DNA of 22,960 nt, from positions 1-22,960 of the IMG/VR virus record IMGVR_UViG_3300020400_000043, one strand, 5' to 3'. The DNA comes from a virus. The notes under the pieces were generated by a model, which searched no databases, was not told where the DNA came from, and saw nothing but the letters and a program-made list of their open reading frames with translations. A program made the translations under genes and the position numbers. Positions 12,934 to 19,772 of this stretch are shown piece by piece (position 1 is the first letter of the stretch; each line of letters opens with the position of its first letter).

Positions 12934-14219
12934 GACTTTGTGTTATTTTGGAATGAGTCTCTCACAAGAGTAAGTCCACTGTATGATTTGTCACCAAACT
13001 CATGTGACAATCTTGCTATCATATAGAGTCCAGAAGCAGGGTTTTTACCCTTTCTTGTTGGTTTCTCAATATTTAGCTTAGCAAACTCACAGAAAATTAC
13101 CTGTCCTGCTCTAAGACTTAAGTTCATAGGAATAGTCACATTTAGCATTTGAGAGAATAATGCTGAGTATCTTGCACTTGATTGTGCCTCATAATTAATT
13201 TTGTCTTGAGGTGTTTCTGCAGACTGACCCTCTATTGCAGGAGTCATAGTTCCTTCATCAACAAATCCAAATGTTATTCTTGAATAAGCATCAGCGTAAA
13301 CTGCAGGGATAAGTTCTTCTTCATTTGATAGTTTAAGGTAAGTCCTTAGACTTTCCTTTAAACTATACTCCTCGAACATCGGTTTCTTTCTTAGTACATC
13401 ATAGTAGTAATTTGCTGCTTTGTATTGTCCACTTCTAAGTTTTTTGATGATATCATGATTTTCCACCCATTCAGGAGGTGATGAAAAATAAAAATTATTA
13501 TCATCTAATGTATTTTTGTCTGATGCATACTGATATTTTATAATTGATTTGTTACCCTCTGCATCTCCAAAAGTTTTATTAACATCTAGGAAACTATAAC
13601 CATCCTGTGTCTCATAAAATAAAAAACCTGAACTCCCTTTTGTTTGACTATATCCATCTGATCCTGATGGAATTGATTTTTTACATAAAGAACTTATCAT
13701 AAAAAGAGGTCTTCTGTAATTTCCAGTGAACTCATATTTGTTAGATGTCTCATCTATGAATAGTCTTTCTTCTTTTGCCTCTAGTTTATCCTTTAATATT
13801 TTTGATACAGTGTCAGATATTTTATCGGTGTATTTTTCCCAAACCCTAGTAGTGTGATTTGATATTGCATGTCGTGTTGCTAATGTCAAATTAAATACCT
13901 CTCTTTTTGTGTCTGAAGTATTTGAGTTAATATTTGTAATAACTAAAGGTTCTGTTGACTCATCCCATCTAAAACCTTCTTTTTGACTTGGATGATCATA
14001 TTGAAGATGCACATTCATACCACTTCTTATTGGCATTTCATTTAAGAACCCATAAGTGTCATAACATGACAATACAATATGAATACTTGGATCAATTACA
14101 TCCTCATGATACTTAACTCCTGCCAGTTGACCCATCAAATTTTTTGGAACTCCACCGCCTGCAGGTATAATGTCAAATTTTTTTAACTTATGACTTTTTG
14201 TCCAAGATGAAGCTTTCAT
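12930..14219 (-). CDS. Baseplate hub protein, gp27-like (429 aa)
   Basis: The protein is close in length to T4 gp27 (391 aa). Residues about 173-213 (FMISSLCKKSIP, then GFLFYETQDGYSFLDV) match the pattern of gp27/Mu gp44-type hubs, which form the trimeric ring that docks gp5 and closes the tube. The N-terminal 120 residues (GVKYHEDVIDPSIHIVL, MPIRSGMNVHL) fit the first hub beta-domain. The operon context agrees: two tape-measure-like genes upstream, gp5 downstream, with only cp12 in between. It starts in a TAATG overlap with the 665-aa gene. Homology to T4 gp27 itself is remote, so the name is by fold pattern and position. Confidence 0.7.
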   Translation of the reverse strand: MKASSWTKSHKLKKFDIIPAGGGVPKNLMGQLAGVKYHEDVIDPSIHIVLSCYDTYGFLNEMPIRSGMNVHLQYDHPSQKEGFRWDESTEPLVITNINSNTSDTKREVFNLTLATRHAISNHTTRVWEKYTDKISDTVSKILKDKLEAKEERLFIDETSNKYEFTGNYRRPLFMISSLCKKSIPSGSDGYSQTKGSSGFLFYETQDGYSFLDVNKTFGDAEGNKSIIKYQYASDKNTLDDNNFYFSSPPEWVENHDIIKKLRSGQYKAANYYYDVLRKKPMFEEYSLKESLRTYLKLSNEEELIPAVYADAYSRITFGFVDEGTMTPAIEGQSAETPQDKINYEAQSSARYSALFSQMLNVTIPMNLSLRAGQVIFCEFAKLNIEKPTRKGKNPASGLYMIARLSHEFGDKSYSGLTLVRDSFQNNTKS

Positions 14220-16216
14220 TATACAGTTAGTAATCCTGTCATCTGTGCGTATTTAGCAACAGCATCAAATGATTCATCTTTTATAACTACAGTTCTTTGC
14301 CCACTCCCTCCTAAACTCATTGGTCTAATCGTGGTGGGATTGTTCATAACAATTAAATTGTTAGTAAGATTAGATTCCTCATTTATTATGGGTGCCATTG
14401 CAAGATTATCACTTTCATTTGTGATTGTTTGAATTTGTTGATCTATATTGTTATCCTTCAACATCAAATCCGACATGGCAATATTTGTAGAATCTGGTGG
14501 TTCTAAATCATTTGAACCAAATAAATCTACCCCCTTTATTTTTTGACCTGGATCTTCAATAAAATCTCTCAAAGGTCGATTATTAAGTATATTCTCCAAT
14601 GTTCTTTGAATTTCAACATCTACATTTTTCATTCTCAATTTATCAGCATCAAATTTAGGTAAATTATCTGGTTTAAATATATCTAATTTTTTGAAAAATT
14701 CATTAAATTTTTGTCTATCTGCCTGTTTTGTCAAATCTATGTTAGGATTTTCTCTATTAAATTTTCTTAATTCCCTTATATATTGTTTTAATTGTCGTTC
14801 TCTTATCCGTTTGTTAGCTTTCAAGAGATTCAGTGCGTTATCTTTTTGCACCTTAGATATTTTTCCTCTTCCGAATAAATTTAGAACATCCTCTGCATTT
14901 TGCTCAAAACCACTCTTCATCTTTCTAAACATCTTAACGGGGTCTCTAAGACCAGTTTTTTGTAATATATTTTGCAATTGACCTTCTGGTGTTTTTGAAA
15001 ATAATTTATCTACAAGTTCTTCTTGTTTTATTTCAAGTTCCTTTTGCTCTTTTTTCTTTATATTTCTTTTTACAATATTAGTTTTGTTTTTGATTTTACC
15101 TGGTGCTCCCTTCTGATCAGGCACAACAGTTCCCCTTTTATTAATAAAAGGTGATGTCCTCATTCTAATTTTTTGTTGTGCAGATTTACTTAGTGTTCTC
15201 TCTAATAATTTTCCAATTGCCACTAATTGTTCCGTTTGACCTAAACCCCTTAAATTAGGACTCTTTAACAATATTTTTTCTATGATTTTTTGACTTGCAG
15301 GAACACTCTTTCCTCGTGAAACCACAGCAGCAGTTATAAGACCTGCTGCAAGTAATGTAAGTCCTATTGCTCTTACTGCAGGTCTTTGAAAAAAGGGTGT
15401 GGAAGGTTTAATTATTGATGATGGAATTTTTACTGTTTGATCATCTTCATCTACTTGTTTCTTAAATGCTATTAGAGTCGGGGCAGTATCTTCCTCAAAA
15501 GTTTTGAGAGTGTCGTCAAATTGATCTAAAGCACCTGAAAACAAAGTTTTCTCTCTTCTTTTTTTATCAATAAAAATTTGTGATTCTCTTTGTCTATCTG
15601 CATTTACTCCTGTGAGTAAGTCTGCGATACTCCCACCAGCAAAAGCACCAACTCCACTTCCAATGATACCACCAATTAATGTTCCTAAAGGACCACCAAA
15701 TGCTGTTCCTATGGCAGCACCTTTTGCACCACCAGCTAAGGCACCTGCCAATCCTCCACCAGCACCAATAGTTGCTTGTGCTATATTTTGTCCACTTCCC
15801 AATCTACCAGAAAAATCTAATCCTGTGCCTAGAATTGCTAAAGGTCCTACTCTACCAAATTTACCAAATTTACCAAGTCTTCCCAAATTTCTTCCAATTC
15901 CTCCCCCTCCTTTAGGAAGTAAAGGTTTTCTAGGTCCTCTACCAGAAAACCCCATACCACCTGACCCTCCTTTACCACGACCTCTGAGTCTGTTTAAAAG
16001 AAGAGAACCTCCAAAAAGATTTCCAAAAATACCACCTCCCTCCTTATCTCTCTTTGATAATGCACTGTATGTTCTACTTCTCTCTTCTATTGATTTTTTC
16101 AACAACTCTAAAGTTCTTTTCTCATATTTTCTATTAAGAGAAGACCTTCTTCTTATATCTCTCAATAAAGCATTAGATGTCCTTTTAGATTTTATGAATA
16201 TCGGTGTTATGTTCAT
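14219..16216 (-). CDS. Tape-measure-like large tail protein (665 aa)
   Basis: The N-terminus is a basic helix (residues 10-58) followed by a Gly/Arg-rich linker (60-125). A very Gly/Ala-rich hydrophobic stretch follows (about 145-200, GAKGAAIGTAFGGPLGTLIG), then a likely membrane helix (282-299, AIGLTLLAAGLITAAVVS), then long Lys-rich helical sequence to about 600. The C-terminus is Asn-rich and ends FDAVAKYAQMTGLLTV. Hydrophobic segments within a long helical protein are typical of tape measures, and T4 gp29 (590 aa) is similar in size. The layout parallels the 622-aa neighbour, so the two may be paralogues, with one as tape measure and the other as a partner at the T4 gp28/gp29 position. 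It starts right after the neighbour's stop. Confidence 0.65.
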   Translation of the reverse strand: MNITPIFIKSKRTSNALLRDIRRRSSLNRKYEKRTLELLKKSIEERSRTYSALSKRDKEGGGIFGNLFGGSLLLNRLRGRGKGGSGGMGFSGRGPRKPLLPKGGGGIGRNLGRLGKFGKFGRVGPLAILGTGLDFSGRLGSGQNIAQATIGAGGGLAGALAGGAKGAAIGTAFGGPLGTLIGGIIGSGVGAFAGGSIADLLTGVNADRQRESQIFIDKKRREKTLFSGALDQFDDTLKTFEEDTAPTLIAFKKQVDEDDQTVKIPSSIIKPSTPFFQRPAVRAIGLTLLAAGLITAAVVSRGKSVPASQKIIEKILLKSPNLRGLGQTEQLVAIGKLLERTLSKSAQQKIRMRTSPFINKRGTVVPDQKGAPGKIKNKTNIVKRNIKKKEQKELEIKQEELVDKLFSKTPEGQLQNILQKTGLRDPVKMFRKMKSGFEQNAEDVLNLFGRGKISKVQKDNALNLLKANKRIRERQLKQYIRELRKFNRENPNIDLTKQADRQKFNEFFKKLDIFKPDNLPKFDADKLRMKNVDVEIQRTLENILNNRPLRDFIEDPGQKIKGVDLFGSNDLEPPDSTNIAMSDLMLKDNNIDQQIQTITNESDNLAMAPIINEESNLTNNLIVMNNPTTIRPMSLGGSGQRTVVIKDESFDAVAKYAQMTGLLTV

Positions 16217-18085
16217 TTATACAAAGGCAGCATATGAATCTAGAGCAAAAGCAGATTCGAGTTTATCAATCGATCCATTGAATATTGTAGATACATTCAC
16301 ATTGCCTGTGGCATTATCAGGAACTTCTGGAAGAGGTGGTATTTCTTGAACATTATTATCACCATTTATTATAATTGGATTATTATTCTTCGTCTCAACA
16401 TTATTTTTTGTAGGATCTACACGTATTAAAGGACCTACTCCACCTTCAGGTATCCTGTAAAAGATTTCTCCTTTACTTTCAAGATTGATTTTCAATAACT
16501 CATTATATCTATTGAGACTATTCTCCGCAGTATTCGTGGTTTGTTTGTATTGTGGCGTAATACTAGCAAATATTCCACCCAATACTTTCATATCATCTTT
16601 ATCTAATCTCTCTGTAAGATCTACACCCCTCTCTTTTGCCTTCGCCTGTATCAAATCAATTTGAAATTCTGGTGTAAATTTTTGTTTATCAGGATCTACA
16701 CCTAATAATCTTTCAGCATCACTTTTTAAGAATACGAATTGACCTGCTCCAACAGCAGCAGATTTTTTCTCATTGCCTTCTCTGTCAATAAATTTTGATT
16801 GAGGATCCTTTAAAAATTCTGTTTGTAAATCGTCAACCTCTGAGATTGTCTTATTAGTAATATCACCATACTTCATTTCACCTGGTCTATCTCCAAAAAA
16901 CATACTAAATCCTGTTTCTTCTGAGTCAGTGCCCTCAAACTCTCTTATTGTTTGTACTGCAGTCTTGAGTTCAGGATCTTCAATTTCAAAATCATCATTT
17001 TTTGGTATAAACTGTTTATTAGCTTCCAGAGTGTCTGCAGCAGCACTTTGAGTGCCAGTAAAGAAGTTAAATAATTTACCTAATAATGAAGGATTATTTT
17101 CAGATTGTGCAACTTTTTCATTAAGGTCTTCACCTGTTACAAATTTGTAAAGATCAGCAGTCTCAGATGACTTAGGAAAAAAATTTCGAGACCCAACTAA
17201 AGACTCTTTATCTTCCTCTCCTTTATCTCCTGTACCTGTTGATGACTGTGATACTTTTTTCTCCTGTTCTTCTCTTGCAATATTTTTACTTTTTACTTTT
17301 TTTATGTCTTTTGGATCAATTTCAATTTTTGTAGTTTTCTTATCTTTTTTTGCATCCTTTATATCTAATAATATAGAATCTGCTCTCGTAAGTTGTGATC
17401 TAAATCTTACAACATCAGGTGAGTTTATTGTGCTCTGCCCTCTTCTTTCTTCTAATATTTCTTGCCTCCTTGTTCTGTCTGAATTATTAGATGCTAGAGC
17501 ACCTCCAGTCAATAATAATCCTCCTAGAGCTGCGAGTGCAAGTATACCCTTCGCTTTACCACCTCCTAACAACCCTAATCCTCCTGCAAGGACTCCACTT
17601 CCTTTTGCTCCTGCACCTATAAGTCCTTTCGCAGCTAATATCCCTATGACACCTTGTGCTATCTCTGGTAAGAATGCAGCAGTCCCTAACCCTATACCCT
17701 GTGCTGCACCACCTATATCTCCTTGTGCAAGTTCATTCGCAGCAATTCCAAATGATGCTAGTCCTATAATTTTTCGTAGATCAAAAAGAGCAGCAGCTTG
17801 AAAACTTTTTTGATTATCAATATCCTTCTTCAGTAACTTTTGTTCCTTTTCAAAAAACTTACGTCTTGCTCTTATATCACTCTGTATTTCATTTTGTATA
17901 CTCCTTATATTTTTATTGAGTTGCTCCATTTCAAGAACAACTCTACCCAACCCTGTTATTTGAGGTCTTTCTGGTCGAACACCTTCCTGTGCTCTTATCA
18001 GTTCTCTTTCATAGGCAGCATCCATCCTACGTTCTAAAGGAACCATAGGTGTTTGAGGTTCTACTGTTCTAGAAGGAGTTTGCAT
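16217..18085 (-). CDS. Tape-measure-like tail protein with lambda-R-like lysozyme domain (622 aa)
   Basis: Residues 45-95 form a coiled coil (LEMEQLNKNIRSIQNEI). Residues about 100-200 are Gly/Ala-rich and hydrophobic, including a likely membrane helix (180-198, GILALAALGGLLLTGGALA). Residues about 200-350 are charged and helical. Residues 374-533 resemble the lambda R endolysin (GH104 family): IREFEGTD aligns with its WSEGTD, placing the catalytic Glu at E384; AAVGAGQFVFL aligns with STGAGRYQLL; then FTPEFQ, AKERG and GIFASI follow in the same order. This suggests a tail-borne peptidoglycan hydrolase acting during DNA entry, in place of T4's gp5 lysozyme. The C-terminus is Asn-rich. The start overlaps the 64-aa ORF by 17 nt, with no clear ribosome-binding site; M14 is an alternative start. 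Confidence 0.7.
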   Translation of the reverse strand: MQTPSRTVEPQTPMVPLERRMDAAYERELIRAQEGVRPERPQITGLGRVVLEMEQLNKNIRSIQNEIQSDIRARRKFFEKEQKLLKKDIDNQKSFQAAALFDLRKIIGLASFGIAANELAQGDIGGAAQGIGLGTAAFLPEIAQGVIGILAAKGLIGAGAKGSGVLAGGLGLLGGGKAKGILALAALGGLLLTGGALASNNSDRTRRQEILEERRGQSTINSPDVVRFRSQLTRADSILLDIKDAKKDKKTTKIEIDPKDIKKVKSKNIAREEQEKKVSQSSTGTGDKGEEDKESLVGSRNFFPKSSETADLYKFVTGEDLNEKVAQSENNPSLLGKLFNFFTGTQSAAADTLEANKQFIPKNDDFEIEDPELKTAVQTIREFEGTDSEETGFSMFFGDRPGEMKYGDITNKTISEVDDLQTEFLKDPQSKFIDREGNEKKSAAVGAGQFVFLKSDAERLLGVDPDKQKFTPEFQIDLIQAKAKERGVDLTERLDKDDMKVLGGIFASITPQYKQTTNTAENSLNRYNELLKINLESKGEIFYRIPEGGVGPLIRVDPTKNNVETKNNNPIIINGDNNVQEIPPLPEVPDNATGNVNVSTIFNGSIDKLESAFALDSYAAFV

Positions 18086-18263
18086 TTTGTTGTGCTTGTT
18101 GTGCCTCTAATTTTTGTTTCTCTAGGAATTTGATAAGATATCCAACATAAATTTCTCTCTCCCAAGGTATCATCGACTCAATATCACTTAAACTCCAGTT
18201 ATGATGTTGCATCAGGGCAAAATTTGCTTCCATCATTGCATCAATACTGGTATGATATAACAT
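18069..18263 (-). CDS. Small chaperone-like hub/tape-measure assembly protein, gp51-like by position (64 aa)
   Basis: A short, wholly helical protein with the core LSDIESMIPWEREIYVGYLI and a Gln/Ala-rich tail. It lies between gp26 and the first tape-measure-like gene, where T4 has gp51 (hub assembly catalyst) and where siphophages encode the gpT-type frame of the tail assembly chaperone. It is far shorter than T4 gp51 (about 250 aa), so that name is positional. The ATG overlaps the gp26 stop (TAATG) and no Shine-Dalgarno lies in the preceding 15 nt. It is in the -1 frame relative to gp26, downstream of a slippery run at 18269-18278, so it may also be made as a gp26 fusion. Confidence 0.65.
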   Translation of the reverse strand: MLYHTSIDAMMEANFALMQHHNWSLSDIESMIPWEREIYVGYLIKFLEKQKLEAQQAQQNANSF

Positions 18264-18997
18264 TATGCGAAAAAATTTGCCAATCCCTCAACTACAACCT
18301 CTGACTCTACATTTGTATTTGGATTTGTTATTTTACCCTTATACTGTAATTTGGGCATAGTTGCAAAAAATTGTTCTATTTTTGAGAATTGACCTGAACT
18401 CAACTGTTCTATAAATGCCACTATTTCTTTTTTAGTGCAATCACTTGCAGACCATGACTCCTCTTCTGTAAAAATCTGGTCAATTGAGTCAGCGACTGCC
18501 TTGAACGCCTCATCAATTCTATTTTCATCAGTGCCAGTAATAGAAAAATTTGAATCCAAGAATTGTTGCATAGATGGATATTTCATTTTTATAGAGATTC
18601 CACTACCCAAATCAATAATGTCTGTATGATCATCAGAAACATTTAATTTGATGTCTGTCAACGCTATTGTAAGTGGAACTTTTGTTTCTCCATCATCTTG
18701 ACAGGTTGCTAATAATTCAACCGACTCACCAACTGATTTTCCTCTTATATTCAAAAACAAATACTCCAATTCAAAACTAGGTAAATCGTCAACTTTGATA
18801 CCACGAGATAAAATACATGACTTTAAAACCTCCTTTATTGTTGCAGCAATGTCTTTTTCATTACCACTCTCCATGGCGATCAAAAGTGCCTTCTCTTCCT
18901 TGACAAGAAAAGGTCGGTATTTTATTGTCTTTGATGTTGAAATAAGTTTTAGTTCAAATGTAGGTGCTACGACCTTAGGTAATGGCATAGTATTCAC
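18263..18997 (-). CDS. gp26: Baseplate hub/assembly protein gp26 (244 aa)
   Basis: I recognise the T4-like gp26 family (the T4 base plate protein family): the pattern FELKLISTSKTIKYRPFLVK, then EEKALLIAMES, then a helical domain with LEYLFLNIRGKSVGE. T4 gp26 is 208 aa. It acts in hub assembly and is suspected to help load the tape measure, by analogy with lambda gpG. The gene starts 13 nt after the gp54-like gene, with only a weak purine-rich site upstream. It ends with GLANFFA and a TAA that overlaps the ATG of the 64-aa ORF. The last codons contain overlapping -1 slippery heptamers. Confidence 0.8.
   Translation of the reverse strand: MNTMPLPKVVAPTFELKLISTSKTIKYRPFLVKEEKALLIAMESGNEKDIAATIKEVLKSCILSRGIKVDDLPSFELEYLFLNIRGKSVGESVELLATCQDDGETKVPLTIALTDIKLNVSDDHTDIIDLGSGISIKMKYPSMQQFLDSNFSITGTDENRIDEAFKAVADSIDQIFTEEESWSASDCTKKEIVAFIEQLSSGQFSKIEQFFATMPKLQYKGKITNPNTNVESEVVVEGLANFFA
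18269..18278 (-). promoter_or_regulatory. Candidate programmed -1 frameshift site at the gp26 3' end
   Basis: On the minus strand the gp26 frame reads GCA AAT TTT TTC GCA TAA. The run AAATTTTTTC contains two overlapping X-XXY-YYZ heptamers (A AAT TTT and T TTT TTC) in the correct phase, two to three codons before the stop. A -1 slip gives CGC ATA ATG TTA with no stop, entering the 64-aa ORF. The product would be about 309 aa. I see no strong stem directly downstream; weak pairing at 18201-18236 begins about 33 nt away. Confidence 0.4.
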
Positions 18998-19010: not shown

Positions 19011-19772
19011 TTAGTCACCTCTTTCCACACCATTTACACTGGTGAGACCAAAGTTGCCAAATTCAGGATCATCAGTATCTAATTGACCTAAGTTTGAGTT
19101 TAGAGAAGTGCGTTCTATTGTATAGTTTTCGTATTTGAAAGTAACAGATGTCTTTATTAATTGTGCCGTTCCATATGCAAGAGGAGACGCAATTATGGAT
19201 ACAGGGAATGCTTGTTCAATGAAATAAGTTATGGTGCTCGGATCTTCTACTATACCTTTTCTTTTCAGTCTATCAAAATCATTGAATTGATCTCTACCAA
19301 AAGCAGTTATCTCAATGGGGCATTTATATTCATTGGGATATCTCATTTTTCTAAAAGAATTATTTTTACCTTTTTCTTTGTTTGGAGAGATAAATTCAAC
19401 CCAAGAATTGAATACATCATTTGTCATATAGTTTTGTTGAGTGTACCATGTTAGGGTTATGTCTGGAAATCTCCTAAAAGTTGCATATTGTTGAGACATG
19501 CCTTGTCTTAGTCCATCAACTGTTGATGTGTCAAGACTAGTGCCAGGCAGTAATGCCTCAGAACAAAACAAAGCAAGGGTCGGTCCTATCGGTGTATTGA
19601 AGTGCTTAATTCGTTTTTCGATAAAATTCTTTAAGTTTGCTGATGCATCAAAATTTATAAACACATCGTAAGTATTGTTGAAGGCAGGAACATTACTATC
19701 AAATTTATGAGGTGTCCTTATCAACTCCTCAGTTGGTAAATAAAATCTTCCTGATTTTATAGCATTTGACAT
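19011..19772 (-). CDS. Tail-tube-fold protein, gp54-like tube initiator candidate (253 aa)
   Basis: The pattern CSEALLPGTSLDTSTVDG, then RFPDITLTWYTQQNYMTNDVFNSW (in two parts), a central proline/tyrosine turn (RYPNEY), then FPVSIIASPLAYG and KTSVTFKYENY matches the beta-sandwich shared by T4 tail-tube gp19 and the baseplate-tube proteins gp48 and gp54. T4 gp54 (320 aa) sits on gp48 and starts tube polymerisation. This protein is too long for a plain tube subunit (gp19 is 163 aa), so gp54 is the better guess. It opens the leftward hub operon, directly opposite gp4. An AGAGGG ribosome-binding site is close to the ATG, with a late-promoter-like motif at 19794-19801. Confidence 0.6.
   Translation of the reverse strand: MSNAIKSGRFYLPTEELIRTPHKFDSNVPAFNNTYDVFINFDASANLKNFIEKRIKHFNTPIGPTLALFCSEALLPGTSLDTSTVDGLRQGMSQQYATFRRFPDITLTWYTQQNYMTNDVFNSWVEFISPNKEKGKNNSFRKMRYPNEYKCPIEITAFGRDQFNDFDRLKRKGIVEDPSTITYFIEQAFPVSIIASPLAYGTAQLIKTSVTFKYENYTIERTSLNSNLGQLDTDDPEFGNFGLTSVNGVERGD

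Follow-up and report, generated by a model that had tools for sequence, protein, structure and literature searches.

A conserved slippery site very probably joins gp26 and a 64-residue downstream frame into one tail assembly chaperone in an uncultivated T4-like phage

Do gp26 and the short frame that overlaps its end encode two proteins or one in the uncultivated marine T4-like phage of IMG/VR record IMGVR_UViG_3300020400_000043? The window analysed here is the whole stretch of 22,960 nucleotides (nt), and both frames lie on its minus strand. The gp26 gene ends as ...GTT GAG GGA TTG GCA AAT TTT TTC GCA TAA TG..., and the ATG of a 64-aa open reading frame (ORF) begins on the last A of the gp26 TAA (18263) in the -1 frame. 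A sequence-only reading of the window had proposed that two overlapping, in-phase slippery heptamers just before this stop (18275-18269 and 18278-18272) permit a programmed -1 frameshift. The sequence confirms both heptamers, and the -1 frame, which reads TTT TTT CGC ATA ATG, runs without a stop from the slip through the 64-aa ORF. Comparison with relatives supports the fusion: gp26 and the 64-aa ORF are very probably the short (TAC-N) and C-terminal (TAC-C) parts of one tail assembly chaperone (TAC), and a -1 slip on T TTT TTC would make the long form, TAC-NC. The fused protein had been estimated at about 309 aa and comes to ~308 aa when counted from the ATG at 18988; an alternative in-frame GTG start at 18997 is possible. 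It would cross the junction as ...ANFF-RI-MLYH..., and its counterpart in P-SSM2 as ...LQSFFRISMAHE....

The relatives compared comprise 80 close IMG/VR sequences, four further sets and twelve GenBank regions. The usable set holds 166 loci with the window included, of which 97 are distinct at <85% protein identity, and it spans phages of Prochlorococcus (P-SSM2), Synechococcus (S-8S56), Caulobacter (Cr30), Sinorhizobium (phiM7), Rhizobium (N34), Stenotrophomonas (Ps15), Vibrio (nt-1) and Aeromonas (AsFcp_2). Not counted among the 166 are the Ackermannviridae, Vibrio K362, the T-evens and a record in which the frame seems to jump upstream. In that record (L193, Stenotrophomonas phage IME-SM1, ~2200-2300) the gp26 frame overruns its usual stop; the apparent jump may be a sequencing error, since the near-identical L192 lacks it. 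Two groups of loci at first seemed to have lost the slip site. In L127, L146, L147, L149, L161 and L101 a later stop had produced this false impression, whereas L122 and L124-L126 end right after the run; the run is present in all of them.

The in-phase run of six T (T6) is found in 166 of 166 loci and thus in 97 of 97 distinct relatives, as TTTTTTC in 89, TTTTTTT in 7 and TTTTTTG in 1. Codon choice within it departs far from the usage of the same genes. The first Phe codon of the run is TTT in every distinct relative, compared with 68% among Phe codons elsewhere in these genes, and the base before it is always T although the residue it belongs to varies (S, N, D, A, G, T or H). The spelling TTT TTC occurs in 89 relatives at the slip site, whereas just 6 of the 94 Phe-Phe pairs elsewhere in these genes use it. 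The T run at the end of gp26 therefore exceeds codon need, far beyond chance, which answers the question raised by the sequence-only reading of whether the run and the -1 phase are kept for more than their coding value. The second heptamer, A AAT TTT, is not conserved among the relatives and is probably incidental.

The frame entered by such a slip is coding. All 97 distinct relatives have the downstream domain in the -1 frame, which in complete relatives runs on without a stop for 58-75 codons counted from the slip; the +1 frame closes after a median of 8 codons (95th percentile 24). With E 1.8e-22 the 64-aa ORF matches phrog_634 ('baseplate hub assembly catalyst'), beginning at profile position 59. 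It also matches the C-terminal end of phrog_150, an early hint that other phages carry this piece at the end of a longer protein. Thirty relatives have no ATG, GTG or TTG before codon 7 of the -1 frame, and in these L5 and H7 are each kept in 29 of 30 and L10 and F18 in all 30. Conservation of residues ahead of any possible start argues that ribosomes read this stretch in the -1 frame although it lacks a start of its own. In Aeromonas phage AsFcp_2 (MH791401; L090, 3708-3887) TAC-C is unannotated and has no ATG at its start, and the -1 reading there matches phrog_634 (E 1e-14).

The T4 protein gp51 provides an independent view of the long form. A profile built from the predicted fusions aligns with gp51 over its full length and straight through the junction (FRIMLYH.../FKLLVNP..., E 3e-12), and the C-terminal part alone also matches it as a profile (E 2.5e-6); eight other T4 proteins gave no match. 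T4 gp51 is a PF12322 protein with a phrog_634 C-terminus, and this together with its colinearity shows that in T4 the long form has a gene of its own. A frameshift from gene 26 into gene 51 is impossible in T4, where the two are divergent, and gene 26 has no slip site at its end.

Two candidate stimulators flank the slip site. The Glu codon five positions before the slip is GAG in 69 of 81 relatives (85%), compared with 32% of other gp26 Glu codons (binomial P 1e-22), and the bias holds when compared with Glu codons ahead of a G-starting codon (P 3e-30). Because the relatives are counted as independent, these P values make the evidence look stronger than it is, although the bias itself is large. 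By this codon bias the relatives show selection for a GAGG resembling a Shine-Dalgarno (SD) sequence 10 nt upstream of the heptamer. Many relatives also have a hairpin ~6 nt downstream: the 50 nt past the slip fold more stably than shuffled sequences, with a mean z of -1.75, compared with -0.08 to -0.73 for controls. When the 10-pair stem of P-SSM2 is laid across the relatives, 60.5% of cells are paired compared with 26-42% when the stem is slid along, and its covariation score is 0.194 compared with 0.047-0.127 slid and 0.095 shuffled. Two of the five stem measures, pairs changed on both sides and further pair types, do not rise above shuffles. Nine of the ten stem pairs are possible in the window. 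The GAGG, together with the hairpin where one forms, probably raises the slip rate.

The predicted fold of gp26 is consistent with a chaperone role. In an AlphaFold2 model (mean predicted local distance difference test score 84), residues 1-95 resemble 3FGX with Z 8.1, the best of 907 structural matches. Second of the 907 is the HK97 tail assembly chaperone 2OB9, with Z 7.9 and a root-mean-square deviation of 3.9 over 84 N-terminal residues; the third match falls to Z 5.4 and the rest to 2.4 or less, and a Z near 8 borders on the range for which the tool itself gives a warning. Foldseek alone found no significant match for the gp26 model in the PDB. A known TAC as the second match to this model fits the gene order, which runs from a tube-like gene through gp26 and the 64-aa ORF to tape-measure-like ORFs, the position held by G/GT in lambda. 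The tail-chaperone role that had been suggested for the pair thus agrees with gene order, with gp51 colinearity and, in the model, with the 2OB9 fold. The third match, over gp26 model residues 6-92, is PDB 5IR0, ORF19 of a PICI-like element of Vibrio cholerae, and this satellite protein may share the chaperone fold.

Several observations weigh against a frameshift at this locus. The window's own clade carries an ATG in the TAATG form, and the public records examined annotate two separate genes. The downstream hairpin of the window is weak (50-nt minimum free energy -6.0 kcal/mol, z = +0.54), which bears out the earlier remark that no strong stem follows its slip site; the hairpins of relatives differ in shape, and RNAalifold returned no consensus structure for 80 junctions. 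A Dickeya phage record lists gp26 as a confirmed structural protein, whereas the lambda chaperones leave the virion. Finally, the -1 phase is preserved in the 19 Ackermannviridae loci and in Vibrio K362, but with ATT TTC or CTT TTC where a canonical heptamer would stand.

The alternative that best survives is that two separate proteins are made, gp26 ending at its TAA and ribosomes restarting at the overlapping ATG to give a free 64-aa protein, as in the GenBank assignment to gp26 and gp51. TAATG is present in the window and in several relatives, and P-SSM2, Cr30, phiM7, N34 and others are annotated in this way. Such coupling had been raised as a caveat in the sequence-only reading, but it fails for the family as a whole: many relatives have no junction ATG, 26 of the 97 having none within 8 codons of the slip, and residues ahead of any start are conserved there. 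None of the 71 relatives that do have a junction ATG carries an SD-like motif 4-14 nt upstream of it, and in the window, as previously noted, no SD sequence precedes the ATG at 18263. Restarting would also leave the T6 run of all 97 relatives and the GAG bias unexplained, and the long form of T4 is a single fused gene. We consider two separate proteins very unlikely; alongside the fusion, TAATG could still give rise to some of the free 64-aa protein.

Transcriptional slippage, in which RNA polymerase gains or loses a base in the T6 run and the altered mRNA encodes the fusion, appears more improbable still. The homopolymer has six T, or seven in 7 of the 97 relatives, and bacterial polymerase is known to slip on long A/T runs (PMC5009743). 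However, the run is short next to the runs of nine in the reviewed bacterial cases, and its seventh base is C in 89 of 97, so it has not been lengthened as polymerase slippage would favour. An SD-like element at 10 nt and a hairpin at 6 nt likewise suit ribosomes and not polymerase. Least credible is that the T run is held for the protein or by base composition, with the -1 phase a by-product of overlap: Phe-Phe is conserved in gp26 and Phe codons of these genes lean to TTT, but other Phe-Phe pairs rarely take the TTT TTC spelling, the preceding T is fixed while its residue changes, and the -1 frame is under coding constraint without a start.

The more distant relatives set the bounds of the conserved -1 slip on the T run. 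Relatives that keep both genes and break either the slippery run or the phase had been named in the sequence-only reading as the case against a frameshift; only the distant Ackermannviridae and Vibrio K362 answer to this description, lacking a canonical heptamer but keeping the phase. The conservation claim is limited to the cyanophage-like and several other T4-like groups because these two lack the heptamer. Most Ackermannviridae junctions in L177-L191 (~2290-2330) read ATT TTC ATT TAA TTTTTG, where ATT replaces the ATG of Dickeya phage LIMEstone1 and leaves the -1 ORF without a start for ~10 codons. Having lost the ATG and having no heptamer, most of the Kuttervirus-like loci may shift in another way. 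One could imagine that three elements (GAGG at 10 nt, T TTT TTC and a hairpin at ~6 nt) together form the T4-like chaperone signal as a cassette tuned clade by clade, that the Ackermannviridae make the same fusion without an X XXY YYZ heptamer, and that heptamer slip, non-heptamer slip and gene duplication in T4 all serve one chaperone. We advance this scheme tentatively and give it somewhat below an even chance.

The features of the locus are collected in Table 1. Two large ORFs (622 and 665 aa) stand in series where one tape-measure gene is expected, and of these the second alone resembles tape-measure profiles. In Cr30 the corresponding region holds a gene annotated as tape measure. Residues ~368-478 of the 622-aa ORF match phrog_18972, and this ORF may hold an enzyme domain.

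Table 1. Coordinates in the window of the predicted chaperone locus, its candidate signals and its neighbours
Feature	Position	Strand	Evidence
Slippery heptamer T TTT TTC, in gp26 phase, one codon before stop	18269..18275	-	Sequence; all 97 distinct relatives have the in-phase T6 run
Second overlapping heptamer A AAT TTT, in phase	18272..18278	-	Only in some relatives
gp26, predicted TAC-N (short tail assembly chaperone), 241 aa, zero frame	18263..18988	-	PF12322 E 3e-67; phrog_150 E 2.6e-73; predicted N-terminal fold resembles HK97 TAC 2OB9
Zero-frame gp26 stop TAA	18263..18265	-	Sequence; one codon past heptamer in 88/97 relatives
Predicted TAC-C: -1 frame from slip (TTT TTT CGC ATA ATG ...) through 64-aa ORF to stop	18069..18275	-	phrog_634, phrog_150 C-terminus; -1 frame in all relatives
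SD-like GAGGGA, GAGG core ending 10 nt 5' of heptamer; candidate upstream stimulator	18284..18289	-	Glu codon bias in relatives; present in window
Site of the hairpin seen in relatives (18262-18253 pairing with 18243-18234); weak in window	18234..18262	-	z-scores and covariation in relatives
Tail-tube-fold gene (gp54/tube-like), upstream neighbour	19011..19772	-	PF23849 Phage_TTP_2 E 1.1e-17; phrog_45 E 1.4e-24
622-aa ORF directly downstream, overlapping TAC-C end; tape-measure position, candidate role	16217..18085	-	Position; matches phrog_18972 only
665-aa ORF, glycine-rich stretch resembling tape-measure profiles	14219..16216	-	phrog_794, phrog_167 E ~1e-11

The slip site, its phase and conservation, the start-less coding constraint of the -1 frame, the GAGG, the covarying hairpin of relatives and the gp51 colinearity are all read from sequence, and from them we infer that slippage takes place in cells, how often it does so and that the products act as chaperones. 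Most ribosomes would end at the TAA and release TAC-N (gp26, ~241 aa). In a minority, the tRNA-Phe molecules in the P and A sites on T TTT TTC would slip back by one base and pair again on TTT TTT. These ribosomes would then go on through CGC ATA ATG to make TAC-NC (~308 aa) with its extra C-terminal domain. By analogy with lambda G and GT, the short form would coat the tape-measure protein and the long form would recruit tail-tube subunits.

A frameshift of this kind in T4-like phages has a short history in print. The abstract of the 2022 study by Vladimirov, Gautam and Davidson reportedly describes frameshifting as apparently conserved in several T4-like groups, with T4 using genes 26 and 51. 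As quoted in PMC10885494 and PMC12846349, that study (Virology 566:9-15, doi 10.1016/j.virol.2021.11.003) identified the TAC genes of T4-like phages; it is also credited with poly-T frameshift signals in their TAC-N genes (PMC12846349) and with some T4-like phages in which a short gene and a fused long gene take the place of frameshifting (PMC10885494). The sequence-only reading had treated chaperone frameshifting in this group as unknown, which matches a 2016 review in which G-T frameshifting is general 'except T4' (PMC5009743) but has been overtaken by the 2022 report as later papers cite it (PMC10885494, PMC12846349). Because TAC genes and poly-T signals have, by these accounts, been reported for T4-like phages from 2022 on, the frameshift here is not new in kind; it is a well-supported further case of the system so described. 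The present analysis documents this uncultivated phage, the statistics on the GAGG, the hairpin past the slip and the relatives that lack a start; among these, the SD-like and hairpin statistics may be new. For many T4-like phages GenBank is probably mistaken in listing gp26 and gp51 as two genes: what is annotated as the second would mostly be the C-terminal end of a frameshift product, and the record of Aeromonas phage AsFcp_2 overlooks this part entirely. Marine T4-like phages would thereby be tied to lambda-type tail building, with the separate short and fused long genes of T4 as the exception.

Known frameshift systems resemble this locus to different degrees. Escherichia coli dnaX combines a slippery heptamer with an SD sequence and a stem-loop as stimulators, comparable with the candidate signals here, and its SD spacing resembles the GAGG spacing found here; it differs in that it slips on A AAA AAG and that the shift, at ~50%, yields the shorter product. 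Lambda slips on G GGA AAG, whereas the slip here would occur on T TTT TTC, and the gene neighbourhood here also has baseplate hub genes. Lambda gpG and gpGT are otherwise like gp26 and the predicted TAC-NC, a short chaperone and a rarer -1 fusion with a C-terminal domain, and their partners are the tape-measure and tube proteins (PMC5009743). The TAC locus of Vandenendeviridae and Andersonviridae is similar in its poly-T slip near the end of TAC-N, its open -1 frame and its separately annotated downstream ORF, although these are other phage families and the motif is GTTTTT (PMC12846349). Closest are the TAC-N and TAC-NC proteins of T4-like phages themselves, for which the short and fused long genes, as reported in the papers that quote the 2022 study, fit gp26 and gp51 as found here.
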